Source: a virus
DNA: 20,445 nucleotides
IMG/VR virus record: IMGVR_UViG_3300023210_000287
Location: 1-20,445 of that record
Reading direction: 5' to 3' (one strand)
Shown: positions 1,823 to 19,869 of the stretch, in pieces
Layout: each line of letters opens with the position of its first letter
Numbering within the stretch: position 1 is the stretch's first letter
Notes under the pieces: generated by a model
Told to the model about the DNA's origin: nothing
Databases searched by the model: none
What the model saw: only the letters and a program-made list of their open reading frames with translations
Program-made: the position numbers and the translations under genes

Positions 1823-2007
1823 AAAATTATATGAAATTAAATGCTATTTCAATTATTATATTAATATTGATATATATGTATTTTAATGCTATTATAACAC
1901 GTAAATATATACTTTTACGAAAAGAATACAAAATTGAATGCAAAGAAAAAATAGATTATTGTAAAAAATATAATAAATTATTAGAAAAAAACAATGAAAA
2001 AAAATAA
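1819..2007 (+). CDS. Single-pass membrane protein with charged helix, spanin-like, 62 aa
   Basis: ATGA overlap with the preceding gene. Residues 8-26 form an N-terminal membrane segment (AISIIILILIYMYF), followed by a highly charged, likely coiled-coil helix (RKEYKIECKEKIDYCKKYNKLLEKNNEKK). This N-in topology with a periplasmic coiled coil is the usual layout of an inner-membrane spanin (Rz type), and the location after the endolysin fits. At 62 residues it is short for an i-spanin, and no partner lipoprotein (o-spanin) was seen nearby or nested within it. Cys41 and Cys48 could form disulphides. Spanins are not recognisable by sequence alone, so the role is inferred from topology and position. 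Confidence 0.6.
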   Translation: MKNYMKLNAISIIILILIYMYFNAIITRKYILLRKEYKIECKEKIDYCKKYNKLLEKNNEKK

Positions 2008-2656
2008 TATTAAAATAAATTTTGCTACAGGATTTGATCAATCAGTAGTAGATATGTTAAATCTAGTTTTTAATGTAGAAGTATGTGACCAATTTGACAC
2101 AGATTCTGATTTATTAATATTTTTAGGCGGAAGTGATGTTGACCCCTATTTTTATAAAGAAGAAGCTAATGAAAGTACTTATTATGATACAGATAGAGAT
2201 TTAATGGAAAGGCAGATATATAAATATCACGATATTAAAAAACCTAAATTAGGTATCTGTAGAGGAGGACAATTTTTAACTGTTATGAATAATGGAAAAT
2301 TAATACAAAATATTGATAACTCTCATTATATGATGCATAATATTAAAACTGAAAAAGGTATTTATGCAATGACTTCTGACCATCATCAAATGATGTACCC
2401 TTTTGAATTGCAAGAAAAAGAATATGAAATGATAGCTGTAGCAGTAGATGAAACTTATAATGAAGGATTAAGTGTTTTTCATCATAATGGTAAAAATGAA
2501 AATATTATCTACCCAAAAAACTTTGTAGAACCTGAAATAATTTATTATCCTAATACAAATTCTTTATGTATACAAGGACACCCTGAATATTCATATTGTC
2601 CAGCAAATACAGTTAGTTATTCTTTAGAATTAATACAAAATAAATTAAAACTATGA
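1994..2656 (+). CDS. Class I glutamine amidotransferase-fold hydrolase (peptidase C26/PuuD-like), 220 aa
   Basis: Probable gamma-glutamyl amide hydrolase or glutaminase. The class I triad is visible: nucleophile Cys89 in the elbow LGICRGGQFL, and His196 and Glu198 in IQGHPEYS. LIFLGGSDVDP (41-51) matches the oxyanion and early strand region of C26 proteins, and SDHHQMM (128-134) matches their substrate-loop motif. The length is near the usual 220-250. In PuuD the family cleaves gamma-glutamyl-GABA; related members cut folate polyglutamates or supply ammonia. It overlaps the spanin-like gene by 14 bases and the next gene by ATGA. Its functional partners are probably the amidoligase cluster beginning 4.6 kb downstream, because GS-fold ligase plus C26 hydrolase is the logic of the PuuA/PuuD pathway. 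Substrate unknown. Confidence 0.85.
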   Translation: MKKNNIKINFATGFDQSVVDMLNLVFNVEVCDQFDTDSDLLIFLGGSDVDPYFYKEEANESTYYDTDRDLMERQIYKYHDIKKPKLGICRGGQFLTVMNNGKLIQNIDNSHYMMHNIKTEKGIYAMTSDHHQMMYPFELQEKEYEMIAVAVDETYNEGLSVFHHNGKNENIIYPKNFVEPEIIYYPNTNSLCIQGHPEYSYCPANTVSYSLELIQNKLKL

Positions 2657-3537
2657 AAAAAATTTTAACCCTATTTTTAATATTTCCAATAATTATTTTT
2701 TCTCAATCATCTGAAAAACTAACATTAAACTATCCCTATGCAATTAATGTTACAAAAGCAGGTAGTTGTGGTTCTCCAGACGGCCCAATAAATGAAATAG
2801 GAAGTCCCCCAATTGATTATCAGTTTTTAGAAGATAATGGGTATTGTAATTATACTTATTTTACTACAAGTGGTTTTACTGCTTGTTTTACACTTATTTC
2901 TCCAGGAACAGATATAAGTTTTAATGCTGGATTTTCTAGTTCTTGTGGAAACTTACAATTTAATAATTTTAATTTATATGACGCAAGTTGTACTTTAATT
3001 GGTGCGGGATTGTCTTTTTCAGGACTCACTCCAGGATCAACATATACTTGGTGTTTAGATATGAGAGCTTTTGGAGGGCCTTTCTGTAATGGTTTTGATA
3101 ATTTCTGTCCTTATTATATTGACAATACTGTAGGATTACCTGTGACTTTAATAGGATTTAAAAGTAAATGTGGAATAGTAGAATGGACTACAGAATCAGA
3201 GATTAATAATGACTACTTCTTACTTGAGTATAGTTTATTTGGTACAGAATGGTATTTATTAGATACTATACAGGGAGCAGGAAATAGTAATGAAATTAGA
3301 AATTATTATTACTTTGATAATCAAATAGATACTGTAAAATATTATAGACTTGCACAAGTAAATTATGATGGAGAAAAAACATATTATTCTCCTATAATAA
3401 TGAACTGTCACCCTAAAATAAAATATATAATATCAATATATGATATATTAGGAAGGCCCGCTAACTTAAAATCTAAAGGTATTTTAATTATTAAATATAA
3501 TAACGGAGAAATTAAAAAAATAATAAGAAATGAATAG
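2653..3537 (+). CDS. Secreted protein with type IX secretion-type C-terminal region, 294 aa
   Basis: Residues 1-18 form a flavobacterial signal peptide (MKKILTLFLIFPIIIFSQ). Residues about 30-155 form a Cys-rich beta-sandwich-like domain (CGSPDGP, NLYDASCTLIGAG, GLTPGSTYTWCL), a style common in Bacteroidetes surface proteins. From 162 (LPVTLIGF) the sequence follows the well-known linker and domain preceding type IX sorting signals: WTTESEINNDYFLLEYS (178-194), QGAGNS (207-212), YYRLAQVNYDG (230-240). The end, YDILGR (263-268), GILIIKYNNG (276-285), KKIIRNE, resembles a short type A sorting domain. The mature protein is therefore predicted to cross the outer membrane through the host's type IX system. 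The gene overlaps its neighbours by 4 and 8 bases with phage-like packing. Role unknown; adhesion or surface masking is speculation. Confidence 0.8.
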   Translation: MKKILTLFLIFPIIIFSQSSEKLTLNYPYAINVTKAGSCGSPDGPINEIGSPPIDYQFLEDNGYCNYTYFTTSGFTACFTLISPGTDISFNAGFSSSCGNLQFNNFNLYDASCTLIGAGLSFSGLTPGSTYTWCLDMRAFGGPFCNGFDNFCPYYIDNTVGLPVTLIGFKSKCGIVEWTTESEINNDYFLLEYSLFGTEWYLLDTIQGAGNSNEIRNYYYFDNQIDTVKYYRLAQVNYDGEKTYYSPIIMNCHPKIKYIISIYDILGRPANLKSKGILIIKYNNGEIKKIIRNE

Positions 3538-5258: not shown

Positions 5259-7229
5259 ATGGTACACTACATTAGTAAACAAACTTCTAATACTTTTATA
5301 AAAGAATATACTTCTGCTAATATAGAAACAACTAGTATATTAAAAGTAATAGAATATTGTAAAAAACAATCAATTTTATCTATTGATACAGAAACAGAAG
5401 GCTTATTTAATCATAAAAATAAAATTATTATGTTTCAAATAGGAGATGACAAACATCAATTTGTAATTGACACTAGAGGAATAAGTTTAAAATCTTTTAA
5501 AATTATTTTAGAAAATCCTAATATAATTAAAGTACTTCAAAATGCTTCTTTTGATTATAAATTTTTAAGAAAAGAAGGTATTATGTTAAATAATATTTGG
5601 GACACTCAAATAGCAGAAATGATTTTAACTACAGGACTAAATAAAAGAAATGTATCTTTACAGGCCTTATGTTTGAAGTATTTAAATATAGAATTAGATA
5701 AAACAGTTAGAAATCAATTTATAAATTTAAATGGACTACCTTTTACTGAGAAGCAAATTACTTATGGAGCTAAAGATGTTAAATATTTGTTACAAATAAG
5801 AAAACAACAATTAATAGAACTTGAAAATTATGATTTATTAAATTGTATGAAACTTGAAAATAAATTTGTAGATGTTTTAGCAGATATTGAGTATAATGGT
5901 TTTTATGTAGATACTAATATGTGGTTAAAATTAGGAGAACAAAATAATTCAAAACTTATTGCAGCTAAAAAAGAGTTAGATAATTATATTATTGACAATG
6001 ATTATAATTCTTTTATTGACTATCAATTAGATATGTTTAGTGAAGATAAAAAATGTTTAATAAGTTGGGACTCGCCTATGCAAGTAGTTAAATTTTTAAA
6101 AGTATTAGGTGTAGAAACATCTATTAAAGATAAAAAAACAGGAAAAATAAAAGATACTTGTGAAGAAAAAAATATAAGTAAATATAAAAAGAAATTTCCA
6201 TTTTTAAAACTATATTTTAAATATAAAGCAATTGCTAAAGAAGTGAGTACTTATGGTGTTAATTTCTTATCCAATGTAAATAAAACAACAGGAAGGATTC
6301 ATTCTAATTATTGGCAAATAATCTCTACAGGAAGAATTAGTAGTCATAATCCTAATCTTCAAAATATACCAGCAAAAGTAGAAAAAGATGGAACTCAGCC
6401 TTTTAGAGAATGTTTTAGAGGTTATAAAGATAATATATTACTTGTAGCTGATTATTCTCAACAAGAACCTAGAGTTACTGCAGATAAATGTAAAGACCCT
6501 GCTTTAATTGATTTTTATTTAACTGGAGATGGAGATACTCATTCTATGGTAAGTAGTAAAATGTTTTCAGTAATAGAAGGAAAAGAAGTTATAATTAAAA
6601 AAGGAGACCCTAGAAGACAAATAGGAAAAGTTTTAAATTTAAAATTAGACTATGGAGGTTCTGCATATACTGTAAAAGATGATTTAAATACTACAGAAGA
6701 AGAGGCACAAGTATTTATAAATGCTTTAATAAAAGCTTTTCCTGAAAAAAGAAAATATTTTGATAATGCTTTTAAAAAATCTTTACAACAAGGGTATATA
6801 TTGATTGATGAAGTAACAAAAAGAAAATCTTTTAGTGAAGATTTTGAAACTTTAAAAAATTATACAGACGCTTTAGACAAATTAAATAAGAATAAAGCAG
6901 ATAAAGCAGGATTTAATTGGAGTGAATTTTATAAATTAAAAGGAAAAATACAAAGAAATAGTCAGAATTATCCTATACAAGGAACTTCAGGATCTATGAC
7001 AAAATTAGCAGCTATTTATTTAAAACAAGAATTATTAAAAAAAGAAATTTATGATAAAGTATGGATAGTTAATTTAGTACATGATGAAATTGTAGTAGAA
7101 ACTTCTAATGATTATAGTGAAGAAGTTAGTAAATTAATTACATTATGCATGGAAAAAGCAGGAAAAGTTTTTTGTAAAACCATTCCTATGATAGCAGAAA
7201 CAGTAAAAAGTAAATATTGGACACATTAA
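5259..7229 (+). CDS. Family A DNA polymerase with 3'-5' exonuclease, 656 aa
   Basis: Replicative DNA polymerase I type enzyme without a 5'-3' exonuclease domain. The DEDD exonuclease occupies about 30-190: SIDTETEG with Asp43 and Glu45, NASFDYKF with Asp99, YGAKDVKYL with Asp173. The polymerase domain shows the template motif GRISSHNPNLQNIP (358-371), motif A VADYSQQEPR with Asp398, the O-helix RQIGKVLNLKLDYGG (453-467, Arg453, Lys457, Tyr465) and motif C LVHDEIVVE with Asp609. The position equal to Klenow Phe762 is Leu461, the Leu type reported in many environmental phage polymerases. The length is typical of phage PolA. It sits between the small-gene block and the amidoligase cluster, away from the other replication genes; the 5' nuclease function is probably supplied by the separate gene at the right edge. 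Confidence 0.95.
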   Translation: MVHYISKQTSNTFIKEYTSANIETTSILKVIEYCKKQSILSIDTETEGLFNHKNKIIMFQIGDDKHQFVIDTRGISLKSFKIILENPNIIKVLQNASFDYKFLRKEGIMLNNIWDTQIAEMILTTGLNKRNVSLQALCLKYLNIELDKTVRNQFINLNGLPFTEKQITYGAKDVKYLLQIRKQQLIELENYDLLNCMKLENKFVDVLADIEYNGFYVDTNMWLKLGEQNNSKLIAAKKELDNYIIDNDYNSFIDYQLDMFSEDKKCLISWDSPMQVVKFLKVLGVETSIKDKKTGKIKDTCEEKNISKYKKKFPFLKLYFKYKAIAKEVSTYGVNFLSNVNKTTGRIHSNYWQIISTGRISSHNPNLQNIPAKVEKDGTQPFRECFRGYKDNILLVADYSQQEPRVTADKCKDPALIDFYLTGDGDTHSMVSSKMFSVIEGKEVIIKKGDPRRQIGKVLNLKLDYGGSAYTVKDDLNTTEEEAQVFINALIKAFPEKRKYFDNAFKKSLQQGYILIDEVTKRKSFSEDFETLKNYTDALDKLNKNKADKAGFNWSEFYKLKGKIQRNSQNYPIQGTSGSMTKLAAIYLKQELLKKEIYDKVWIVNLVHDEIVVETSNDYSEEVSKLITLCMEKAGKVFCKTIPMIAETVKSKYWTH

Positions 7230-7238
7230 TATAGTAAA

Positions 7239-8057
7239 ATGAATAAAAAAATAAATAATATAACTTTAGGGTGTGATCCTGAAGTTTTTTTGCGTAATAA
7301 GCAAGGGGAATTTATAGCGTCTTGTGGAAAGTTTGGTGGAACTAAGCAATCACCTTTAAAATTAACAGATGTTGGACATTATATGCAAGAAGACAATGTT
7401 GCATTAGAGTTTAATATTCCTCCAGTTATTGATAAAAAATCTTTTAATAGAGAGATAAATATTGCTTTGAATTTAATACAAGAAAAAGCTAATAATTTAA
7501 ATTTAAATTTGGCAATAGAATCTTCAGGAATATTTAAAGAGGAAGAATTACAACACCCGGCAGCAAAAGCTTTTGGATGTAGCTCTGATTATAATGCCTG
7601 GACAAAAAGAATAAATAAAAAACCTTCTCCTAATACTAATCTAAGAACTTGTGGTGGTCATATACATATTGGTTATGATAATCCTACATTAAATACTAAT
7701 TTAGAAATAATTAAAACTATGGATTTATTTTTAGGACTTCCTAGTTTATTTATAGATGATGATGTAGAAAGAAGAACAATGTATGGAAAAGCAGGATGTT
7801 TTAGAAATAAAAGTTTTGGTGTAGAATATAGAGTTTTATCTAATTTTTGGTTAAAATCAAATGAATTAATTAATTGGGCTTATGATAATACTTTAGAAGC
7901 TATTAATTTTATAAATAATAATACAGAAATTAATACTTATTCTAAAGATATTCAAAAAGTAATTAATACTAATGATAAATCATCTGCAGTAGATATTTTA
8001 AAATATTACAACATTCATTTGCCAATTTTAAAAAAAGTTAAAAATTATAAAAATTAA
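7239..8057 (+). CDS. Amidoligase, phiEco32 type-2-like (GS/COOH-NH2 ligase fold), 272 aa
   Basis: Predicted ATP-dependent carboxylate-amine ligase. Features match the phiEco32-like amidoligase type 2 family: an early acidic metal motif TLGCDPEVF (9-17, Asp13, Glu15), QEDNVALEFNIPP with Glu51 and Glu57, a His-rich strand CGGHIHIGY (138-146), and EYRVLSNFW (196-204, Glu196, Arg198). These are the expected acidic and basic positions for Mg-ATP and substrate binding in the glutamine-synthetase-like fold. It is the first gene of an eight-gene run of amide-bond enzymes. The family was placed among amidoligases by comparative genomics (Iyer and colleagues, 2009); I know of no certain substrate. The partner ligases are the ATP-grasp at 9462 and the second amidoligase at 12613. 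Confidence 0.85.
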   Translation: MNKKINNITLGCDPEVFLRNKQGEFIASCGKFGGTKQSPLKLTDVGHYMQEDNVALEFNIPPVIDKKSFNREINIALNLIQEKANNLNLNLAIESSGIFKEEELQHPAAKAFGCSSDYNAWTKRINKKPSPNTNLRTCGGHIHIGYDNPTLNTNLEIIKTMDLFLGLPSLFIDDDVERRTMYGKAGCFRNKSFGVEYRVLSNFWLKSNELINWAYDNTLEAINFINNNTEINTYSKDIQKVINTNDKSSAVDILKYYNIHLPILKKVKNYKN

Positions 8058-8062
8058 TAGTA

Positions 8063-9451
8063 ATGAGTCAAGAAAAATATGAAACAATAGACCCTCCTAT
8101 AATTAAAAAGGTACGTTGTAAAAGTTTACATAAATACACAGGTAATGTATTAAAATATAAAGAAATTTATAAAGTACTAAAAGAAAAAAAAGATTCAAAA
8201 GGTAATGTATACGCATATAAATTAATGGATTTAGAAGGGAATATATTAAAATCTTATTATTTTAAATGGAGATTTTATGATATTGATTTAATTTCTGATA
8301 GCTCTTTAATTAAATCCAAAATAGCCACTGTGCATGAAAATATGGGACTTCATTTTTATTTATATTCTTTAAATGATTCTATAGCAGCTTTTTCTTTTAT
8401 TTATAAAAAAGAAGTTATAAGTTATTTTTTAAATAGTACTTCGAACAATATGCTAACAGAAGATACTTATGTAGAAATGTTAAATATTCCTGCAATAACA
8501 GAAACTATAACTTTTTTAAATGTAGAAGAAATTACAAATAGAATAAATTTTCTTATATCTAAAAATATTATAGTTAAAGATAATGATAGTATAAGATTAA
8601 CTTCTAATGCTATTTATATTTTAGAACTGTGTGTAGGGGAAAAACTTGATGGTAACAAACATTTTCTCGATAAAGAAATACTTTTAAATGATTTATATAA
8701 ACTACAATCAAGTTGTTTTAAACCATTTATAGAGCCTATGAATTCATTACAAGGGATTAATCCTTATAATAATTATTTTTTAGCAACTAATAATATTCCT
8801 GCATTTGTTTTTATATTTTTTAAAAAAGTAAATGAATATACTAATGCTAATACTATTGCAAATTTTAAAACTACATTACATGACTATATATGTAATAAAT
8901 TTTCTTTTTATTATAAAAAAGATAATGAATTTATAAATAATCAAACCTATGTAAAGTTAACTAAAGAAATTCATAATTTTACTTATGGAAAGCCTTATTT
9001 AGTATTAAATTCAGAAAAAATAAGAAATACTTTAGAAATAATTAAATTAGAAACAGATAATGCTAATGTATTTAAATATATAGATAAAAGATATTTAAAA
9101 ATCATAGAAGAAGAAGATACTATCCCTTTATTTATGTTTCATAAGTTTACAAAAAGTCTTTCTTCGGATACACTTTTAAATTATATAGATATAACTGTTC
9201 ATAAACTTTGTGCTATTTTCCTTTTATCTCAATATAAATTCAAAAAGAATATAGTTATAAAAAATGAAGATAAAAATATTATAAAGGAGCAAATATTAAA
9301 ACAAATAATTTCCTGTTTAGGAAGTACGCCTTTATATAATACTAAGTCGTGGTTTCATAGAAGCGTAATTGAAACTGAAGAACCTTTTGAAATAAATTCT
9401 AAAAAATTAGAACTTCAAATAAAAGCTGAAAATGGCTTTAATATTTTTTAA
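8063..9451 (+). CDS. Unrecognised 462-aa protein inside the amidoligase cluster
   Basis: No family recognised. Residues 15-75 look like a small beta-rich domain (VYAYKLMDLEGNILKSYYF). Residues 153-187 (NVEEITNRINFLISKNIIV, then IRLTSNAIYIL) have the helix-turn-helix plus wing pattern of a winged helix. Residues about 200-440 are mostly helical and Lys/Asn rich. There is no catalytic motif, signal peptide or membrane segment. It lies five bases after the first amidoligase and ten before the ATP-grasp gene, so it is almost certainly co-expressed with them. It could be a carrier or substrate protein, a scaffold, a regulator or an unrelated replication protein. Confidence 0.8.
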   Translation: MSQEKYETIDPPIIKKVRCKSLHKYTGNVLKYKEIYKVLKEKKDSKGNVYAYKLMDLEGNILKSYYFKWRFYDIDLISDSSLIKSKIATVHENMGLHFYLYSLNDSIAAFSFIYKKEVISYFLNSTSNNMLTEDTYVEMLNIPAITETITFLNVEEITNRINFLISKNIIVKDNDSIRLTSNAIYILELCVGEKLDGNKHFLDKEILLNDLYKLQSSCFKPFIEPMNSLQGINPYNNYFLATNNIPAFVFIFFKKVNEYTNANTIANFKTTLHDYICNKFSFYYKKDNEFINNQTYVKLTKEIHNFTYGKPYLVLNSEKIRNTLEIIKLETDNANVFKYIDKRYLKIIEEEDTIPLFMFHKFTKSLSSDTLLNYIDITVHKLCAIFLLSQYKFKKNIVIKNEDKNIIKEQILKQIISCLGSTPLYNTKSWFHRSVIETEEPFEINSKKLELQIKAENGFNIF

Positions 9452-9461
9452 ATAAAAAATT

Positions 9462-10256
9462 ATGTTAAAATATCTAAGAGTACGTAGTCGTCATCCTAGT
9501 CATGACATACTTAGAAAACCTACCTTTATTTATCCTGAAAGAAAAGGTATTTTATTACCAGTATTTGCCTGTATTAGATTAGGTAGCACTTCTAAAATAA
9601 ATCCTAAATTTTTAGAAATTAATACTATTAATGCAATTAAAACTTCTTCTAATAAACTTTTAATGAAGAATGCTTTTAAAAAAAATAATATTAATTCTCC
9701 TAAATTTTGGGAAACAAAAGAAGATTTGTTAAATGAAAATGAAATCCCTTATCCTTTAGTAGCTAAAAAAATATATGGATCTAGAGGTTACGGGATTACA
9801 AAAATAAAAAATCCTCCTGAATTAAATGAATTTTTAGAAAATGAATATAATGATTCTTATTATTTTGAAAAGTATTATAAATATCTAAGAGAATATAGAA
9901 TACATGTTACAGAATTAGGTGCTTTTTATACTTGTAGAAAAATGCTAAAAACAAATACTCCTGAAAATTTAAAATTTGTAAGAAATAATAATAATTGTGT
10001 ATGGTTTTTAGAAAGTAATCCTAAATTTAATAAACCTATTAATTGGGACATAATAGAAAAACAATGTGTTAATGCATTAAAAGCTGTAGGATTAGATATA
10101 GGGGCATGTGATGTTAGAGTAGCTGCATATCCTGATGAAGATGGGTATCATTATTTTAAAATTATAGAAATAAATTCAGCTCCTAGTTTTGGAGAAAATA
10201 CAGCAAAAGAGTATTTAAAAATAATTCCGCTAATAATAAAAAATAAACTGAAATAA
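9462..10256 (+). CDS. ATP-grasp ligase (RimK/YheC-like), 264 aa
   Basis: Predicted ATP-dependent carboxylate-amine or peptide ligase. Residues 47-70 hold the start of the fold (INPKFLEINT, then NKLLMKNAFKKNNI, the usual 'K...K..l...gIp.P' segment). PLVAKKIYGSRGYGI (98-112) supplies the ATP-binding Lys and the flexible glycine loop. YYFEKYYK (133-140, Glu136) is the adenine-side acidic strand, and REYRIHV follows. CDVRVAA (216-222) and KIIEINSAPSFG (233-244, Glu236, Asn238) are the metal-binding end. The N-terminal pre-ATP-grasp region is short. It is embedded in the amidoligase cluster, with a two-gene step to the cyclotransferase, and resembles ligases that add single amino acids to a protein or peptide end. 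Substrate unknown. Confidence 0.88.
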   Translation: MLKYLRVRSRHPSHDILRKPTFIYPERKGILLPVFACIRLGSTSKINPKFLEINTINAIKTSSNKLLMKNAFKKNNINSPKFWETKEDLLNENEIPYPLVAKKIYGSRGYGITKIKNPPELNEFLENEYNDSYYFEKYYKYLREYRIHVTELGAFYTCRKMLKTNTPENLKFVRNNNNCVWFLESNPKFNKPINWDIIEKQCVNALKAVGLDIGACDVRVAAYPDEDGYHYFKIIEINSAPSFGENTAKEYLKIIPLIIKNKLK

Positions 10257-10257
10257 A

Positions 10258-10866
10258 ATGACTAGAAATGAATTTCTTACAGAGTATGACCAAAATTTAA
10301 GTGAATTTTGTGAAAATGCATCTAATATATGGGAGGCTTTAAAATTTAGTAATAATAAAATTAAAAAATCAGATATAGTTTCTATTGAATTTAATAATTT
10401 AGAAGATGATACTGATATCCCTGGATTATTCAGAAATTCTGACTATCCAAGTATAGAAGTGACTGTAAATACAAAAAAATGTTCCGATAGTAATTCTGTA
10501 TATAGATTTTTAATATTATGTTATCCTAATTGTTGTGGAATAGCTATATTATATGGGGTAGAATTTGTATATTCGGGAGAAAAGTATGGTAAACAGGAAA
10601 ATACAACAGCAGTTTTATGTCTTTTAAAAGAAATATGCAGTTTATTAGGTTATGGGTCTTGTCAATATGTATGTACATCTTATCAGGATAGTGTAATTGC
10701 TTCTTTAGAAGATCTAGACTTTAAAAAAGTTCATGAGTCTCTCCCAAGAGTAAATTATGAAAGAGTTTATGAAGATGACGATGACTATGATTCGGAATAT
10801 GAATGGGAAGAAGTAGAAGAACATGAAAAAAAAATATATACTTATCAATTAAATTTAAATAATTAA
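10258..10866 (+). CDS. Unrecognised 202-aa protein with acidic tail, in cluster
   Basis: Begins one base after the ATP-grasp stop. The N-terminal part is helical (RNEFLTEYDQNLSEFCENASNIW). The middle (60-105) is beta-like (PSIEVTV, YRFLILCYPNCCGIAILYG). Residues 113-157 (NTTAVLCLLKEICSLLGY, then SYQDSVIASLEDLDFKKV) faintly recall the second half of GNAT acetyltransferases ('..a..lye.lGF..v'), but the acyl-CoA loop is not clear. Residues 171-190 are strongly acidic (EDDDDYDSEYEWEEVEEHE). With Cys75, 88, 92, 93, 121, 127, 135 and 139 it is Cys-rich for a cytosolic protein. Tight position between ligase and cyclotransferase implies a role in the same pathway; which role is unknown. Confidence 0.75.
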   Translation: MTRNEFLTEYDQNLSEFCENASNIWEALKFSNNKIKKSDIVSIEFNNLEDDTDIPGLFRNSDYPSIEVTVNTKKCSDSNSVYRFLILCYPNCCGIAILYGVEFVYSGEKYGKQENTTAVLCLLKEICSLLGYGSCQYVCTSYQDSVIASLEDLDFKKVHESLPRVNYERVYEDDDDYDSEYEWEEVEEHEKKIYTYQLNLNN

Positions 10867-10870
10867 GATT

Positions 10871-11287
10871 ATGAATAAAATGTTATTAATGGTTTATGGA
10901 ACACTAATGAATGATTTCCATAATAATGGTTTACTAAAAGAACAAAAGTATTTAGGTAAATGTGAAACAAAAGAAAAATATACTATGTATGTCAATGGTA
11001 TTCCTTATGTTTTTCCAGATAAAGAAACTTCTACAATAAAAGGTGAATTATGGGAAGTATCAGGGGAAGATTACATACAAGATTTAGATTCTTTAGAGGG
11101 ACATCCTGATTGGTATGAAAGAAAAGAAATAGAAGTTGATTTTAATGGAAAAAGTATAACTGTATGGCTATATTTTATGCCCGATAGTTCAGTAACTTTA
11201 TCTACAATGACTATAATAAAAAATGGAGATTTTGCTAATCCTGAATATGCAAAAAATAATAATTTAATAGAAACAATTAATAATTAA
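10871..11287 (+). CDS. Gamma-glutamyl cyclotransferase-like (AIG2/GGCT) protein, 138 aa
   Basis: Predicted to release an amine from a gamma-glutamyl amide as the glutamyl part cyclises to 5-oxoproline. The family signature VYGTLM is at 8-13 (canonical YGTL). A second block, GELWEVSGEDYIQDLDSLEG (58-77), contains Glu76, the expected catalytic acid, followed by HPDWYERKEIEV, a typical GGCT strand. The length fits the compact AIG2 form. It lies four bases after the 202-aa gene and four before the class II amidotransferase. In butirosin biosynthesis a cyclotransferase (BtrG) removes a protective gamma-glutamyl group added by an ATP-grasp ligase (BtrJ); the same ligase/cyclotransferase pairing is seen here, although the substrate is not known. 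Confidence 0.85.
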   Translation: MNKMLLMVYGTLMNDFHNNGLLKEQKYLGKCETKEKYTMYVNGIPYVFPDKETSTIKGELWEVSGEDYIQDLDSLEGHPDWYERKEIEVDFNGKSITVWLYFMPDSSVTLSTMTIIKNGDFANPEYAKNNNLIETINN

Positions 11288-11291
11288 TAAT

Positions 11292-12635
11292 ATGTGTGGT
11301 ATAATAACAGCGAGTGGATCAATTCCTTTTAGTGTAGATAAATTAAATCTTTTATTTGCGTATAATGAGTCTAGAGGAAAAGATTCTGTAGGATTTTATA
11401 ATGAAAAAGATGATATTCCTTTTGAAAAAAGACTTTATAAAAAAATGGGGCGTGCTTCTTCAGAATTAATTCCAAACCATAGATGGAAAGAAACTAATTT
11501 ATTTTTAGGTCATGTAAGAGCTGCTACAAAAGGTATAGTTAATATAGAAAATTGTCATCCTTTTTTATTTGATAATATTATAGGATGTCATAATGGTACT
11601 CTTAATAATTGGGGAATTCTTAAAAAAGAATACTATTTATCAGAAGAAGTAGACATGGATAGTAAAGTATTTTTTGACTATTTAAATACTTATGATGATT
11701 ATAAAATTTTAGAAGAATTTGATGGGGCTGCAAATGTTTTGTGGGTAGATAAAAGACAACCTAAAAAATTATTTGTATTTAAACATTCAGAACGTAGTCT
11801 ATATAGAGGCGTAATTGAAACTGAAGAAGGAAAAATGATGTATATTTCATCAGTAGAAACTGGATTAGAAGCTATTGGATGTACGAATATTAAAACATTT
11901 AAAGATCAGTATTTATATGAAATAGTAGAAGGGGTAATTATTAAAACAATTAAAATTAAAGCTTCTCCAAGAAAAAGTCTAAGTATAGAGAGGCAAAAAG
12001 AGCTTAATATTTATAAAGAACCTAATAAAATAAAAGAAACGACATTAAAAAATGATCATAGTACTATATTTGAATTAGGGGAATCTATCTCTAAACTAAA
12101 AACTAGCTATGATAGTCCTAAAAGTATGGGCAGAGAAAATGATACATGGGTAACTAATAAACAAAGTGATAAAACAGAATATTATTTCCCAGAGTTTATA
12201 GGTTGTGAAAATATGTTAGTAGAAAAAGTTAATCACCCTGAAATATCACACAAAGAAATAGTATATAGTGATGTTTGCAATTCTTTTATACTTAATTTAT
12301 ATTTTGATTCAGGAGCTTTCTATGAATTTCGTTTAGGATTACCAAGTATTCATTATGATGCTACTAACGGAAAAAAGATTTCAAGTTTATTAAGTCAAGA
12401 ATCTGAAGTTACAGAAGAATTAGTTGATTCTATTATTATGGGTAGTAATATGCAACAAGATATTTCTGAAGCTTTAAAAAATATCGCAAAAGACTTAATA
12501 CCTATTATAGGGGAAAATTCTATTATTTATAATAAATTAACAACACTAATAGAAGAAACAGAAGATTATGCTTCTGATAATGAATTATTAATAGCTAAAA
12601 TTATAGACGAGAATGCAAGAACAGAATTTGAATGA
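11292..12635 (+). CDS. Class II glutamine amidotransferase (Ntn hydrolase) with C-terminal extension, 447 aa
   Basis: Glutaminase domain in residues 1-200: Cys2 as N-terminal nucleophile (MCGIITASGS), RGKDSVGFY (28-36), GHVRAAT (73-79, Arg76), NCHPF (87-91), CHNGTLNNWG (99-108) and MDSKVFFDY (122-130), the order seen in GlmS/AsnB N-terminal domains. It should free ammonia from glutamine. No synthetase or isomerase domain follows; residues 200-447 are an unrecognised extension with SPRKSLSIERQKEL, a beta part (FILNLYFDSGAFYEFRLG, 326-343) and a helical end. The start is fixed by the need for Met-Cys. Ammonia or the glutamyl group might go to one of the cluster ligases. The Ntn fold also includes peptidases, so amide hydrolysis is an alternative. 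Confidence 0.88.
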   Translation: MCGIITASGSIPFSVDKLNLLFAYNESRGKDSVGFYNEKDDIPFEKRLYKKMGRASSELIPNHRWKETNLFLGHVRAATKGIVNIENCHPFLFDNIIGCHNGTLNNWGILKKEYYLSEEVDMDSKVFFDYLNTYDDYKILEEFDGAANVLWVDKRQPKKLFVFKHSERSLYRGVIETEEGKMMYISSVETGLEAIGCTNIKTFKDQYLYEIVEGVIIKTIKIKASPRKSLSIERQKELNIYKEPNKIKETTLKNDHSTIFELGESISKLKTSYDSPKSMGRENDTWVTNKQSDKTEYYFPEFIGCENMLVEKVNHPEISHKEIVYSDVCNSFILNLYFDSGAFYEFRLGLPSIHYDATNGKKISSLLSQESEVTEELVDSIIMGSNMQQDISEALKNIAKDLIPIIGENSIIYNKLTTLIEETEDYASDNELLIAKIIDENARTEFE

Positions 12636-14184
12636 CAAATATATAATAACTAAATCAAATAAAAAAGTACTTCGAAAAAAAGTAGTAGATATAGATGGAG
12701 AATTCTATACTATAACAGGTAAAAATCCAGAAGCTATTTTTTATAATGATGAATATGTTGTAAATACTAAAGAATATGTTTTATTAACATGTGAAAATAG
12801 ATATGAATTAAAAAGAAATACATACGTATTTTTAAGTCTAAAATCCGATAAAACTATTAAGATTAATTATTATTTAAATAGAAATAATATTTATGACTAT
12901 TTAGATATATTAGAAGAAGACCTTAATAAAATACATCCTACAGGTTTTTTTAGTAAATATAAACAACATAGAGGAATCTTATTTTTTGATTATCAAATTA
13001 TTACTAAATTTAAGTTATTTTATAATAACTCTATTAACTCTTTTAGTATTAAAACTATTGATAATATAAATCAAAACCGTAAATATTTAAAAAATGCAGA
13101 GTATGTAGCTCCATGGAAAAAAGTTGGATATATAACCTATTTTAATCATTGGAATTCAGAGAATAGTAAGAAAGAACAAAGAAAAAGAAAAATACTATTA
13201 GGAGAATTTTCACCTACTTTTTTATTATCAGAAGGATTAAAGTATACTTTTGGAGTAGAAATAGAAACTTCTTCAGGACGCATACATAAATTAGAATATA
13301 ATGCAAATAATTTAAATATGAATTGTGACCATGATGGTTCTATTAAAGGAGGAGAATATGTAACTAATGTTTTAACAGGAGATGCTGGTTTTAAACAACT
13401 TCATAAAATAACTTCTTTTTTACAAAGTAGGTGTAAAATAGATAGAAGTTGTGGAATTCATGTTCATATTGGAGGAACTGTATTTAATAAATCATTTTCA
13501 GTATTTTCATATTTATTAGGAGTAAAACTACAAAATGATTTATTTAAAATGCTACCTAAAAGTAGAAGACATAATAAATTTTGTGGAGATTTACCTAATT
13601 TTAATTTTAATGAAATACTTAAAGAATATGGTTATAATTATGGGGTAGAAATAGCTTATGATTATTTATTTAGAGAGCTTTCCAGCGGTACAAAGTTAAG
13701 TAGAAATGCAAATAAAAAGTTTAATCATCCTTATGGTAGATATTGTGGACAGTATCACGATGTTGAATTTGATACTATTCTAAGATATAAATGGTTAAAT
13801 TTAGTACCATGTAATTTTAATGTAAGGCATTTTGATTTTTATAATTTAACAAAAAAAGAAAGGTCAATAGCAAGAACTGATTTACCTTTCACTATTGAAT
13901 TTAGAAATCATTCTGCAAGTTTAAATTATGTTAAAATTAAAAACTGGGTACTTATTTGTATGGCATTTGTTAATTATGTTGAAAATCATAAGGAAGAAAT
14001 CTTAAAAAAAGAGTTTATTACTATTGAAGACATAATTAAAAAAGTATATAAAAAGAATTCTAAATATCTTTTAGACTATATTGAAAGTAGAAAAAATCAT
14101 TTTAATAATATTAACGAAGAAGTAGAAGTAAATAATTTTAAAGCTCCTGATTCAATTAACTTTAATCAACTATTATGTGTATAA
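12613..14184 (+). CDS. Putative amidoligase (PF12224-like) with N-terminal extension, 523 aa
   Basis: Second, distinct GS-fold amidoligase. The ligase domain is residues about 205-465: KYTFGVEIETSSG (210-222, Glu216, Glu218), CDHDGSIKGGEYV (238-250), CGIHVHIGG (280-288, His283, His285) and FTIEFRNHSASLN (426-438, Glu429, Arg431), then the helix VLICMAFVNYVEN. These are the acidic and His/Arg positions conserved in putative amidoligases. Residues 1-200 are an unrecognised extension, beginning with beta-like segments (KYIITKSNKKVL, YVVNTKEYVLLTCENRYEL). The gene overlaps the upstream amidotransferase by 23 bases and the downstream one by 10, so all three are probably made together, suggesting a ligase supplied by one or both glutaminases. 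Substrate unknown. Confidence 0.85.
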   Translation: MQEQNLNDKYIITKSNKKVLRKKVVDIDGEFYTITGKNPEAIFYNDEYVVNTKEYVLLTCENRYELKRNTYVFLSLKSDKTIKINYYLNRNNIYDYLDILEEDLNKIHPTGFFSKYKQHRGILFFDYQIITKFKLFYNNSINSFSIKTIDNINQNRKYLKNAEYVAPWKKVGYITYFNHWNSENSKKEQRKRKILLGEFSPTFLLSEGLKYTFGVEIETSSGRIHKLEYNANNLNMNCDHDGSIKGGEYVTNVLTGDAGFKQLHKITSFLQSRCKIDRSCGIHVHIGGTVFNKSFSVFSYLLGVKLQNDLFKMLPKSRRHNKFCGDLPNFNFNEILKEYGYNYGVEIAYDYLFRELSSGTKLSRNANKKFNHPYGRYCGQYHDVEFDTILRYKWLNLVPCNFNVRHFDFYNLTKKERSIARTDLPFTIEFRNHSASLNYVKIKNWVLICMAFVNYVENHKEEILKKEFITIEDIIKKVYKKNSKYLLDYIESRKNHFNNINEEVEVNNFKAPDSINFNQLLCV

Positions 14185-14873
14185 TTATAGCAAAAAAACA
14201 AGGTGTAGAATTTAATATGGATACAATCACAAAAGCTGTTGAATGTGCTATCCAAAGAAATAATGATGGAGCAGGTTTTGCACTTAAAAGAAAAAATCCT
14301 TTAGATAAAAAACGTAATATTTTAATTTCTAAAGGATTTATGGAAAAAGATCCATCTAAATTATTAACTAATATTTATAATCAAAATATAAAGAAAGAAG
14401 ATGAATTGATTATTCATTTAAGGTATACTACTTCTGGAGAAGTAAATGTAAATAATTGCCATCCTTTTGGAATACCTAGTAAAGAAAATCAAGGATTAAT
14501 AGAAGTAAATAATCATGATATTAATTTTCCAGTAGTAGCACATAATGGTACTTTTTATGATTTTATATCTGATAAAAATTTAACAGGATGGAATCATTTT
14601 TATGCAGATAAACAAAAAAAGTCAGATTCTTATAAATTTGTTGAAGAACTTTTGGTAAATAAGAATTTATTGCCTATCTTTGTAGAGAGAGCAAAAAGTA
14701 AAGACTTTTTCTTTGATTCTTATATTCTTAATAATAAACTTTCCTTTCTATTTCCAGATAGAGAGATGTTATTAATAGGAGATTTTATAGAAGAAACGGA
14801 TGGAATGATGTATTCTAATGAATACTATAAAAATCCTTATAAAAAGGTAGATTACTCGAATCTTACCTATTAA
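14175..14873 (+). CDS. Second class II glutamine amidotransferase (Ntn hydrolase), 232 aa
   Basis: Compact glutaminase or Ntn amidohydrolase. Cys2 is the predicted nucleophile (MCIIIAKKQG), with NNDGAGFAL (29-37), IHLRYTTSG (80-88, Arg83), NCHPFG (94-99), VAHNGTF (121-127) and KSDSYKFVEELL (149-160). The third residue is Ile, not the Gly of MCGI, and the order otherwise follows class II enzymes. The C-terminal part, LLIGDFIEETDGMMYSNEYYK, completes a four-layer Ntn core with no further domain. The start lies 10 bases inside the preceding amidoligase gene and is fixed by the Met-Cys requirement. It differs clearly from the 447-aa enzyme, so the two are not recent duplicates. It is the last gene of the amide-bond cluster. 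Confidence 0.85.
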   Translation: MCIIIAKKQGVEFNMDTITKAVECAIQRNNDGAGFALKRKNPLDKKRNILISKGFMEKDPSKLLTNIYNQNIKKEDELIIHLRYTTSGEVNVNNCHPFGIPSKENQGLIEVNNHDINFPVVAHNGTFYDFISDKNLTGWNHFYADKQKKSDSYKFVEELLVNKNLLPIFVERAKSKDFFFDSYILNNKLSFLFPDREMLLIGDFIEETDGMMYSNEYYKNPYKKVDYSNLTY

Positions 14874-14892
14874 TCTTCTATAAAACATACTT

Positions 14893-15216
14893 ATGATATC
14901 AGAATATAATGAAAAATTAGGAGTAGATAATAGTTTTTTATATGATGCAATTAACATTGTAGAAGAATATTATTTATACCCGAAAACATATAAAGATTTA
15001 GCACATATAATTAGTATAGAATTCAATTGCGTATGCAAAGAGAATGACATTTCTAATTATTTTAATACAGGAAATATAGTGAAAAGTAATAATATATTTA
15101 ATAAACAAGTAACAGTAGAAAATGTAGATACTCACATTAATTGTAATATCTGCTTTGATACTAAACAAGTATATGACGGGATTAAATATGTAAAATGTAG
15201 GAATTGTAAACCATGA
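14893..15216 (+). CDS. Small zinc-ribbon protein, 107 aa
   Basis: Unrecognised family with two readable parts. Residues 14-60 look like helices (FLYDAINIVEEYYLYPKTYKD, LAHIISIEFN, KENDISNYFN) that could form a helix-turn-helix, since 'TYKDLAHIIS' has the spacing of an HTH. Residues 84-105 hold Cys84, Cys87, Cys102 and Cys105 (CNIC, 14 residues, CRNC), a standard zinc ribbon at the C-terminus. The pair suggests a DNA-binding or transcription-related protein. It is the first gene after the amidoligase cluster and overlaps the next gene by ATGA, linking it to replication. Confidence 0.65.
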   Translation: MISEYNEKLGVDNSFLYDAINIVEEYYLYPKTYKDLAHIISIEFNCVCKENDISNYFNTGNIVKSNNIFNKQVTVENVDTHINCNICFDTKQVYDGIKYVKCRNCKP

Positions 15217-15824
15217 AAATTGAAATTAAATTTGATTTATTAAAAATTAACAAAATAAGTCCTAATGAATATTTATTATTAAATTTAGTCTCCTTAAATA
15301 GAGGAGACTTAATTAATAAAATATTAGAAGTGGATTATTTCACATATAGTAATGTTTTATTTATACTTTCAAAAAATAAATACATTATTAATAATACACC
15401 TTTGTTACCTACAGGTAAAAAAATAAGTGGATATCAATTTGAAGCTACTAAAAAGGGAGTAGAAATAATAGAACCTAAATCAGTTAAAGCAAGTTTTATA
15501 GGTGAATCTAAAATAGAAAGTTGGATAGATGATTGGAGAAACATATTTCCTAAAGGAAAAACAAGAAATGGAAATCCAATTAAAGGTAGTAGATTAAATT
15601 GTATTAAAAAAATGAATTTATTTATTAAAACTTATAAATTTTCAAAAGATACTATTTTTAAAGCTACTGAAGTATATATAAAAGGTCTAAAAGGAGATTT
15701 TGATTATATACAAACAGCCCAAAATTTTATTGAAAAAAATAAAACAAGTAATTTAGCAGGATTTTGTGAGTTAATAGTAAATGGATATGAAGAAACAGAA
15801 ATAGATAATAAAATAAATATTTAA
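15213..15824 (+). CDS. Possible replication initiator or helicase loader with winged helix, 203 aa
   Basis: Residues 1-86 look like a winged-helix domain: helices at NEYLLLNLVSL and GDLINKILEVDYFTYSNVLF, a hydrophobic LSKNKYI turn and a wing ending FEATKKGVEII. Residues 100-190 (SWIDDWRNIFPKG, then a long helical part ending GFCELIV) resemble C-terminal regions of phage replisome organisers that bind and load DnaB-type helicase. The DnaB-like gene follows after nine bases, the usual order for loader and helicase. There is no AAA+ ATPase motif, so it is not a DnaC-type loader. I call the function from layout and fold pattern only. Confidence 0.55.
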   Translation: MKIEIKFDLLKINKISPNEYLLLNLVSLNRGDLINKILEVDYFTYSNVLFILSKNKYIINNTPLLPTGKKISGYQFEATKKGVEIIEPKSVKASFIGESKIESWIDDWRNIFPKGKTRNGNPIKGSRLNCIKKMNLFIKTYKFSKDTIFKATEVYIKGLKGDFDYIQTAQNFIEKNKTSNLAGFCELIVNGYEETEIDNKINI

Positions 15825-15833
15825 AATGAAAAA

Positions 15834-16889
15834 ATGACAGATTTTGGCCAATTATTAAAACAGGTAGAAGATGGGATTGAGGGGAAAAGTAAATGGATAC
15901 CTATTGGGTATGATAAATTAGGTAGCCACATAGGAATAGGTCAAAAAATATACACATTAATAGGTGGGAATTCTGGCACAGGTAAAACTGGCTTTACAGA
16001 TTGTACTTATGTTTTAAATCCTTATAAATGGTATAAGGAAAATAAAGATAATACAGATATTAAATTTAAAATTATTTATAGGTCTATGGAAAGATCTAAA
16101 AGTTTTAAACTTGGTAAGTGGGTTTGTTCTAAATTATATGAAGATTATAGAATAATGCTGGATGTTCCAACTATTTTTGGCTGGGGAAGTAAAAAAAATC
16201 ATATTCCCCAAGAAGTATATGAAAAGATTAGAGGTTGTAGAGATTATTTTGAAGAAATGTTAGATGTAGTAGAAATAATTGACGGTGCTGAAAATCCAAC
16301 GGGAGTAAGAAATCATTTAATAAAATACGCTCTTGAAAACGGTAAATTGATAGAAAAATCAGAATTTGTAAAAGAATATAAACCAACAAATCCAAATCTT
16401 ATTACTGCTGTTGTTATAGACCATATTGGTAAACTTAAAAATGAAAGGGGTTATAGTAAAAAAGAAAGAATAGATAAAATGTCAGAATATTTAGGAGAAG
16501 TTAGAGATAGATATGGGTTAAGTCCTATAGTTGTTTCTCAATTTAATAGAAATTTATCAGACTCTCAAAGAGCAAAAAATAAAGAACTAACTCCTGATCC
16601 TGATGACTTTAAAGATACTGGCAATCTTTATGAAGATTGTGATGTAGCTTTAGCTTTATTTAATCCTTATAAATTAAAAGAATATGAACATATGGGATAT
16701 GATATTAAAAAGTTTGTAAATCATAAAGGATATAATAGATTTAGGTCTATAACTGCTTTAAAAAATACTTATGGTATTGATGATTTTAGAGTTGGATTTG
16801 CCTTTATTGGGGAAAATGGATTATTTGGGGAATTGCCAAAAGCAGATGAAATGGAATTAAAAGACTATGATAGAATCAGAACAATATAA
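15834..16889 (+). CDS. DnaB-type replicative helicase, RecA domain only, 351 aa
   Basis: Predicted hexameric 5'-3' helicase motor. Walker A is GGNSGTGKT (44-52, Lys51). YRSMER (82-87) holds the likely catalytic Glu86 in the position of DnaB motif H1a. Walker B is AVVIDHIGK (192-200, Asp196), and PIVVSQFNR (231-239, Gln236) is motif H3. FKDTGNLYEDCDVALALFNP (259-278) follows DnaB motif H4, and FRSITALKNTYG is near the arginine-finger region. The DnaB N-terminal domain is missing, so the protein is shorter than the usual 450 residues and may depend on a separate protein for loading; the upstream winged-helix protein is the candidate. It overlaps the next gene by 23 bases. Confidence 0.88.
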   Translation: MTDFGQLLKQVEDGIEGKSKWIPIGYDKLGSHIGIGQKIYTLIGGNSGTGKTGFTDCTYVLNPYKWYKENKDNTDIKFKIIYRSMERSKSFKLGKWVCSKLYEDYRIMLDVPTIFGWGSKKNHIPQEVYEKIRGCRDYFEEMLDVVEIIDGAENPTGVRNHLIKYALENGKLIEKSEFVKEYKPTNPNLITAVVIDHIGKLKNERGYSKKERIDKMSEYLGEVRDRYGLSPIVVSQFNRNLSDSQRAKNKELTPDPDDFKDTGNLYEDCDVALALFNPYKLKEYEHMGYDIKKFVNHKGYNRFRSITALKNTYGIDDFRVGFAFIGENGLFGELPKADEMELKDYDRIRTI

Positions 16890-18451: not shown

Positions 18452-19429
18452 ATGTATACAACTAAAGGATATAGTAAATTAACAAAAGAAGAAATATTAA
18501 TAAGAATATCTGCAATAGATATATTTAATTACTATATAACTAATTTTACAAGTGACAAAAAAAGTTTTTGTAGTGAATTAAGAAAAGATAATCACCCATC
18601 TTGTAGAATAAAAATATATAGTAATGGAAAAGCAATTTATAAAGATTTTGGAAATAAAGATTCTTTTGATTGTTTTTCTTATGTACAAGCCAAATATGGT
18701 GTAAGCTATTTAGACGCATTAAAAATAATAAATAGCGATTTTAATTTAGGATTAGACGGAAGTAATTCTACAATTCCCTCTCCTATTTTATTAGGATTAA
18801 AAGATAAAAAAGAAATAAAAGTTGAAAAAACAGTTATTCAACTTAAAAAAAGAAAATGGAATACTAACATAGATAAAGAGTATTGGGGACAGTATTATTT
18901 ATCTTGCAATATATTAAATTATTTTAATGTAATTCCATGTTCACATATTTGGATTAAAAAACGAATGTTTAAAATATCTAACCATAATCCTGCTTATGCG
19001 TATAAAATAAATAAAAATACTTATAAAATATTATCTCCTTATGCAGATAAAAAATTTAAATGGTTAAGTAATTCTACTGAATATGATTTACAGGGATATG
19101 AACAATTACCAGAACAAGGAGATATATTAATCATTACAAAATCATTAAAAGATGTAATGGTTTTACATTTATTAGGTTATAATGCTATTGCCCCACAAAG
19201 CGAGCAAATAAATATTCCTAATGAAATTATGAAAAAGTTAGAGAGTAGATTTGATAATATTATACTATTTTATGATAATGACCCTGCTGGAAATATGGGT
19301 AGAGAATTAATATGTGATACTTATAGCCTTTCTTCTATTATATTGGAAGGAGATGAAAAAGATATTTCAGATTATATAAAGAAACATGGAATAGAAGCTA
19401 CTAAAATGCTCTTAAAAACATTAATATGA
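18452..19429 (+). CDS. DNA primase, TOPRIM type with degenerate zinc domain, 325 aa
   Basis: Phage primase. The N-terminal part (about 20-95) follows the CHC2 fold (FCSELRKDNHPSCRI 39-53, FGNKDSFDCFSYVQAKYG 66-83), but the usual Cys-His-Cys-Cys set is not complete (Cys40, Cys51 and Cys74 only, no second Cys of the ribbon), so zinc binding is doubtful. TOPRIM lies at about 222-300: ILIITKSLKDVMVL (225-238), GYNAIAPQSEQ and ILFYDNDPAGNMG (271-283, Asp276, Asp278). Lys230 stands where most TOPRIM proteins have the first Glu. There is no helicase domain; the DnaB-type gene provides it. The start is nine bases after the hairpin. Confidence 0.85.
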   Translation: MYTTKGYSKLTKEEILIRISAIDIFNYYITNFTSDKKSFCSELRKDNHPSCRIKIYSNGKAIYKDFGNKDSFDCFSYVQAKYGVSYLDALKIINSDFNLGLDGSNSTIPSPILLGLKDKKEIKVEKTVIQLKKRKWNTNIDKEYWGQYYLSCNILNYFNVIPCSHIWIKKRMFKISNHNPAYAYKINKNTYKILSPYADKKFKWLSNSTEYDLQGYEQLPEQGDILIITKSLKDVMVLHLLGYNAIAPQSEQINIPNEIMKKLESRFDNIILFYDNDPAGNMGRELICDTYSLSSIILEGDEKDISDYIKKHGIEATKMLLKTLI

Positions 19430-19869
19430 GATTAAAAAGACGGAAATCCTCAAAAGGAAAAATAAGAAATGCAACTAAAATTGAAAAAGACGGGATAGTA
19501 TTTAGAAGTAAATTAGAATTATATACTTATAGTAAATTAAAAGAAAATAAAATTTCTTTTGAATATGAATCTACTAGGTTTGTATTAATTGATAAATTTA
19601 CTTATCCTAAAGATAGTTATGAATCTTATAAAAGTACTAAAGGAAAAAAGTTTGAAAAAAGAAGTGATAAAATAAGGCCTATGACTTATTTACCTGATTT
19701 TATAAATAAAAAAGATAGTTGGGTAATAGAAGTTAAAGGGTTTGCAAATGATTCATTTCCTCTTAGGTGGAAGTTATTTAAATATATAACAAAAGATAAT
19801 CCTTATACTTTATATTTACCATCCACTAGAAAAGAAGTAGACGAAGTAATATCACTTTTAAAAAAATAA
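19426..19869 (+). CDS. PD-(D/E)xK nuclease (DUF1064/endonuclease I-like), 147 aa
   Basis: Predicted Holliday-junction or branched-DNA nuclease. FRSKLELYTYSKLKENKI (26-43, Glu31) begins the fold. The active core is YLPDF (88-92, Asp91) and WVIEVKG (99-105, Glu102, Lys104), followed by LRWKLFKYI, a helix typical of endonuclease I-like proteins (rrK.k.f...). The N-terminus is very basic (MRLKRRKSSKGKIR), useful for DNA binding. It overlaps the primase by four bases (ATGA). Resolution of recombination intermediates would fit the Sak4-like ATPase and SSB genes upstream. Confidence 0.82.
   Translation: MRLKRRKSSKGKIRNATKIEKDGIVFRSKLELYTYSKLKENKISFEYESTRFVLIDKFTYPKDSYESYKSTKGKKFEKRSDKIRPMTYLPDFINKKDSWVIEVKGFANDSFPLRWKLFKYITKDNPYTLYLPSTRKEVDEVISLLKK

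Follow-up and report, generated by a model that had tools for sequence, protein, structure and literature searches.

Positions 7239–14873 of IMGVR_UViG_3300023210_000287 (the window; we analyzed the entire 20,445-nt record) encode a cluster of enzymes that make or break amide bonds. We think it probable that this is a crAss-lineage variant of the amidoligase cassette of short-tailed phages, and that it forms a multistep gamma-glutamyl and amide pathway with the mechanism proposed below. The enzyme set is already known from LUZ24/PaP3, phiEco32-type phages, phi14:2, cr108_1, and Leptolyngbya phages. What the window adds, in an apparently crAss-related phage, is a variant in which the PuuD-like hydrolase is displaced and both a second class II glutamine amidotransferase (GAT-II) and a GNAT-like protein are present.

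A sequence-only reading of this DNA had described eight consecutive co-directional genes that overlap or are separated by 1–10 bases. This is what we found: eight intact open reading frames (ORFs), all on the + strand, with spacings, in order, of 5, 10, 1, 4, and 4 nt, while at the last two junctions the frames overlap by 23 and 10 nt. The order is COOH-NH2 ligase, a protein of no known family, ATP-grasp, another such protein, a gamma-glutamylamine cyclotransferase (GGACT), GAT-II, Amidoligase_2, and the second GAT-II. The eight genes stand, but they are not the complete set: a PuuD/SpuA-like class I amidotransferase at 1994..2656 (+), which that reading had missed, belongs to it as well. The families that had been named (two glutamine synthetase (GS)-fold ligases, an ATP-grasp core, a GGCT/AIG2 protein, and two glutaminases with N-terminal cysteines) were all recovered, and wide alignments of the ligases and glutaminases examined show the expected catalytic residues intact.

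The first ligase (7239..8057) is of the phiEco32 type, with the GS/GCS fold, and matches PF14395 (COOH-NH2_lig) in Pfam above the cut-off (E = 2.3e-13). The structural neighbors of its AlphaFold2 (AF2) model (pLDDT 93.9) are YbdK (VIA Z 14.7), GshF (14.5), PafA (14.2), and glutamine synthetase (about 14). The closest structures, with VIA Z of 13.8–14.7, also include plant GCL, and the model resembles Dop as well as the Pup ligase PafA. Characterized members among YbdK, GshF, PafA, the glutamine synthetases, and plant GCL activate the gamma-carboxylate of glutamate, while GGACT and PuuD-type enzymes cleave gamma-glutamyl amides. Because the modeled ligase resembles gamma-carboxylate activators, and because the set also includes two enzymes for cutting gamma-glutamyl bonds (GGACT and the PuuD-like enzyme), the best-supported mechanism is gamma-glutamyl chemistry. 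(A sequence search of the PDB gave no match for either GS-fold ligase or for the second GAT-II.)

The GGACT (10871..11287; PF06094, 1.6e-22) has its catalytic E76 invariant among relatives, and its profile matches in the PDB are YtfP (1xhs) and AIG2-like/GGACT proteins (3jub, 3juc). In the PuuD-like protein (PF07722, 8.1e-17; phrog_7218, 5e-28), the triad C89, H196, and E198, the HHQ motif (H130-H131-Q132), and the GGxD motif (G45-G46-D48) are invariant across 31 sequences. The best PDB matches to its profile are Lin1909 (3fij), 7d4r, and PuuD (6vtv, 1.6e-14). By sequence, then, it is classed as a gamma-glutamyl hydrolase of the peptidase C26 (PuuD/SpuA) type and not as an ammonia donor. In related loci such as L007, L095, L097, and L100, a homolog immediately precedes the COOH-NH2 ligase; in the window, the two are separated by several genes, PolA among them.

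The RimK-like ATP-grasp peptide ligase (9462..10256) is clear in PHROG (phrog_2599, 1.6e-25), with weak ATP-grasp/RimK matches in Pfam, and is 42–46% identical to the cassette ATP-grasps of cr108_1, phi14:2, and Lbo-JY46. K65, K102, E144, R146, and E236 are invariant among its relatives (at least 90% for K102). E144 and R146 form the ExR motif, which has been assigned to the peptide-ligase assemblage of ATP-grasps (PMC4431377). Its profile matches in the PDB include cyanophycin synthase, D-Ala-D-Ala ligase, and L-amino acid ligase.

The remaining three enzymes form a block. The first GAT-II (11292..12635; GATase_6, PF13522, 1.1e-12) is the partner of Amidoligase_2, with C2, R76, N101, G102, and D123 invariant among relatives. 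Amidoligase_2 (12613..14184; PF12224, 3.1e-12), the second GS-fold family, has E216, E218, D241, E248, H283, H285, E429, and R431 invariant in 17 sequences. The second, shorter GAT-II (14175..14873) has a weak match to GATase_4 (0.0014, under the cut-off) and was recognized by alignment with its relatives: C2, R83, N124, G125, and D151 are invariant in nine sequences. It is identical in the 4,096-nt contig L087.

We propose that the COOH-NH2 ligase, as its fold suggests, would join a glutamate unit to an amine through the gamma-carboxylate, after activating that group with ATP, and that the ATP-grasp enzyme, going by its family, would add a further amino-acyl or peptide bond. The GAT-II/Amidoligase_2 pair, which is nearly always adjacent, would amidate a carboxylate of the product with glutamine-derived ammonia or with an amine. 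GGACT and the PuuD-like hydrolase belong to families with known activities and would remove gamma-glutamyl groups, either for deprotection or for recycling. The pathway would probably operate in the cytoplasm, early in infection.

To see which genes accompany the ligase, we collected COOH-NH2 ligase loci from IMG/VR, phage records, and genome contigs, called ORFs, scored them with family profiles, and dereplicated the loci at 60% ligase identity, which left 60 groups. Amidoligase_2 is present in 56 of these, GAT-II in 55, ATP-grasp in 52, the class I enzyme in 43, and GGACT in 25. The four-enzyme core (COOH-NH2 ligase, Amidoligase_2, GAT-II, and ATP-grasp) is complete in 51 of the 60; several of the other groups are truncated contigs, fragments of metagenome-assembled genomes (MAGs), or L129, which resembles a large phage. 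GAT-II adjoins Amidoligase_2 with a median gap of 1 nt, the class I enzyme adjoins the COOH-NH2 ligase with no cassette enzyme intervening in about 40 groups, and ATP-grasp adjoins GGACT in 16. Among 50 whole records, 45 have GGACT and/or a PuuD-like enzyme, and in four of the five that have neither, the cassette is at a contig edge. In the phage collection, 312 records match the COOH-NH2 ligase, including LUZ24-like and phiEco32-like phages. On the bacterial side, the whole scan of genome contigs yielded only nine loci, all on MAG contigs and partly phage-like.

Most loci, including LUZ24 and phiEco32, share one layout (A). The other layout (B) is found in the window, crAss-like phages, and Leptolyngbya phages, which cluster, with weak support, in a tree of the ligase. 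The window's own layout is rarer but replicated: six other contigs have the same enzyme order (L094; L095; L097; L098, the same contig as L007; L099; and L100). Thus the genes travel together in a conserved order. The idea that this is a chance neighborhood of unrelated metabolic genes has in its favor two slots occupied by unrelated, fast-evolving proteins; given the conserved set and order, along with overlapping frames, the survey refutes it, and we give it practically no weight. The conserved, non-random composition supports the multistep amide or gamma-glutamyl pathway that the sequence-only reading had proposed.

Some loci carry part of the set. In L102–L108, L110, and L111 (some of which are short fragments), the available stretch has the GAT-II/Amidoligase_2 pair but neither the COOH-NH2 ligase nor an ATP-grasp, and this arrangement may be an amidation-only subset. 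In several of them (for instance, L107:8562-10846), a GGACT lies about 6–8 kb downstream of the pair. Conversely, L129:5174-10066 and L126:953-4571 have the COOH-NH2 ligase, PuuD-like enzyme(s), and GGACT, without Amidoligase_2, GAT-II, or ATP-grasp. (Since L129 carries, in addition, a large RNA-polymerase-like ORF at 12556-15927, it probably represents a large phage within a MAG.) These partial sets suggest two sub-modules, one for gamma-glutamylation and deglutamylation and one for glutamine-dependent amidation.

Similar cassettes have been described before. Iyer et al. (2009) are said, in papers that cite them, to have linked amidoligases to ATP-grasp and GAT-II genes, and Hardies et al. 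(2013) reportedly described a podovirus peptidoglycan modification cassette in phiRIO-1. As far as these citing papers go, they bear out the earlier claim of a literature link and of no settled product. That reading also held that the cluster is more elaborate than a simple one-ligase set. This is not supported: two ligase families, an ATP-grasp, and a glutaminase are the standard content of the podovirus cassette (PMC5498523, PMC3890496, PMC11945000), and only the second GAT-II is less common, lying beside Amidoligase_2 in about 9 of the 60 dereplicated loci. Like the podovirus cassette (Iyer 2009; phiRIO-1; PSA-HP1, PMC5498523), the window has a COOH-NH2 ligase, a second amidoligase, an ATP-grasp, a glutamine amidotransferase, and a gamma-glutamyl cyclotransferase, set amid replication and transcription genes. 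It differs in gene order and in having the second GAT-II, the GNAT-like protein, a 462-aa protein, and the displaced PuuD-like hydrolase. LUZ24, PaP3, UFV-P2, tf, and the phiEco32-type phages (Kuravirus) have the same core enzymes in the order COOH-NH2 ligase, another gene, Amidoligase_2, GAT-II, ATP-grasp, GGACT, with one GAT-II and with a phrog_4877 protein of about 200 aa that we did not find in the window.

Crassvirales cr108_1 and Cellulophaga phage phi14:2 share with the window the order COOH-NH2 ligase, GAT-II, Amidoligase_2 and a crAss-type primase, but lack the second GAT-II and have UDG next. The window has both the class I amidotransferase, which cr108_1 has and phi14:2 lacks, and GGACT, which cr108_1 lacks. 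The six contigs with the window's enzyme order also have the second GAT-II. Unlike the window, their other slots are filled by different proteins or are missing, and their class I amidotransferase (not found in L094) is directly or one gene 5' of the ligase. Our literature search found no paper on crAss-like phages with amidoligases.

The window's primase is nearest to those of crAss-like and Flavobacterium phages (36–39% identity to the best crAss-like records), and its PolA is nearest to those of Leptolyngbya phage Lbo-JY46 and crAss-like phages. Because of these affinities, the window probably belongs to a crAss-related phage whose host is one of the Bacteroidota. We recognized no structural genes in the window; the clues to its tail type are the affinity of the primase and the 44 related records discussed below.

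As for the acceptor, our leading but tentative candidate is a peptidoglycan precursor peptide. The cassette has been called a "peptidoglycan modification cassette" that is conserved in podoviruses (PMC5498523), and it has been suggested to block superinfection or to prepare lysis (PMC5498523, PMC11945000). In PSA-HP1, the cassette is transcribed immediately upon infection, ahead of the takeover genes (PMC7082346). This is in line with a peptidoglycan target, as are two other observations: the named hosts in the sampled records are Gram-negative, and 44 cassette-bearing records yielded neither a tail sheath nor a PhageMin_Tail family. Several points weigh against our proposal. The cassette contains no peptidoglycan-specific enzyme (Mur, flippase, or FemX). 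Sharing the GS fold does not prove that glutamate is the substrate. GGACT and the PuuD-like enzyme seemed mutually exclusive in the raw data (odds ratio 0.26, p = 0.04), but this complementarity is unsupported once relatedness is accounted for. In the window, cr108_1, phi14:2, PaP3, and Kuravirus, the cassette sits amid DNA replication genes, so targets other than peptidoglycan fit too. Finally, we know of no product, substrate, or phenotype for the cassette.

That genomic setting would suit a hypermodification of DNA or nucleotides, in which a modified base, once amidated or aminoacylated by the ligases, shields phage DNA from restriction. Furthermore, relatives of Kuravirus are resistant to restriction-modification although no modification pathway is known for them (PMC11990801), and PncB and PrsA genes lie near the Leptolyngbya phage cassette. 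But DNA of phage tf, which has the same cassette, is cut by RsaI, HpaI, EcoRV, SmaI, and HaeIII (PMC3517423), and DNA of the LUZ24-like phage U17 is sensitive to 11 of 16 enzymes (PMC11945000), which makes modification of the bulk DNA unlikely. Among the annotations of the loci that we read, there is no hydroxymethylase, base kinase, or deazaguanine gene. This option, which the sequence-only reading had listed, is thus disfavored, and we consider it improbable. The pathway might instead attach gamma-glutamyl or peptide tags to host proteins or to virion or ejection proteins of the phage. The ATP-grasp is RimK-like, the ligase model resembles PafA and Dop, and fast-evolving adjacent proteins could serve as substrates. 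With neither sheath nor PhageMin_Tail in the 44 records, and with podoviruses as the published members (PMC5498523), a target specific to short tails is possible, although the distribution may merely mirror shared replication modules. We think that protein modification is unlikely, as the substrates of GGACT and PuuD are small gamma-glutamyl amines, and the PSA-HP1 cassette genes are transcribed before the takeover genes (PMC7082346). A specific form of it, in which a host or virion protein would receive an amidated gamma-glutamyl peptide made by the two GS-fold ligases and the ATP-grasp and erased by PuuD/GGACT-type enzymes, seems more doubtful still; if true, it would be the phage equivalent of Pup or polyglutamylation, limited to short-tailed phages of Gram-negative hosts.

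We give the same low odds as for protein modification in general to a small-molecule pathway that makes a polyamine-like or antibiotic-like gamma-glutamyl amine or peptide, with gamma-Glu serving to protect an intermediate that is later deprotected. Puu/Spu polyamine pathways and butirosin biosynthesis (BtrJ/BtrG) do combine gamma-glutamyl ligation by GS-fold or ATP-grasp enzymes with removal by PuuD- or GGACT-type enzymes, and both of the latter families are present here. Also, ATP-grasp adjoins GGACT in 16 of the dereplicated loci (see above), the GNAT-like model matches SpeG spermidine acetyltransferases among others, and genes for glutathionylspermidine synthase are present in Aeromonas phage LAh_8 (L090:21694-22902), separate from its cassette. 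On the other hand, the ligase families differ from those of Puu/Spu and butirosin, no carrier protein, oxidase, dehydrogenase, decarboxylase, or export gene was found with the cassette, and infections are short for secondary metabolism. This cassette is common in short-tailed phages. Its set of enzymes is nearly always complete and pairs ligases resembling gamma-carboxylate activators with two kinds of gamma-glutamyl cutter; together with the unlikelihood of bulk DNA modification, this narrows the product to a short list of masses to seek.

Neither of the proteins that the earlier reading had left unrecognized has a Pfam or PHROG family, but one has a predicted fold. This 202-aa protein (10258..10866) has a low-confidence AF2 model (pLDDT 64.7) whose top Foldseek matches are nearly all GNATs (best 1.6e-4), with VIA Z up to 9.6 against GNAT chains; it has homologs in L088 and L094. 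Because the acyl-CoA motif [QR]xxGx[GA], sought by eye, is absent from the proteins of the window and L088, we describe it as GNAT-like in fold only. The 462-aa protein (8063..9451), between the COOH-NH2 ligase and the ATP-grasp, had no relative among the viral contigs searched. The same slot in L007, L094, and L097 holds other proteins of about 290–375 aa, and a profile comparison with the one from L007 gave 42% over only 26 columns.

Other cassettes have their own accessory proteins. In most layout-A cassettes (L015:3551-4231 and 62 similar loci), a protein of about 200 aa with a conserved RxPxRQWxKg-like motif is directly 3' of the COOH-NH2 ligase. These proteins form two sequence clusters (hhalign 98%) and were not found in the window; PaP3 and Kuravirus have the phrog_4877 protein in their place. 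Pairs of fast-evolving proteins of about 270–400 aa flank the cassette in L005:5908-7838, L093:31547-33722, L001:9460-11361, and L090:5002-6767. Several have a C[FY]G motif, and profile comparison did not unify them. Nor did it show a single family for the proteins of about 300 aa that are 5' of the ligase in PaP3, Kuravirus, cr108_1, and LAh_8.

In the window, PolA (5259–7229, by Pfam) is directly 5' of the cluster, and a helicase-like ATPase, a Sak4-like gene, and the primase gene, which are common to crAss-like loci, are 3' of it. Scans for promoters and terminators gave no signal above chance. A 294-aa protein (2653-3537), encoded after the class I amidotransferase and before PolA, has a signal peptide-like start and, by eye, resembles secreted proteins of Bacteroidota. 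After the primase, a 147-aa ORF (19426-19869) looks, also by eye, like a small nuclease.

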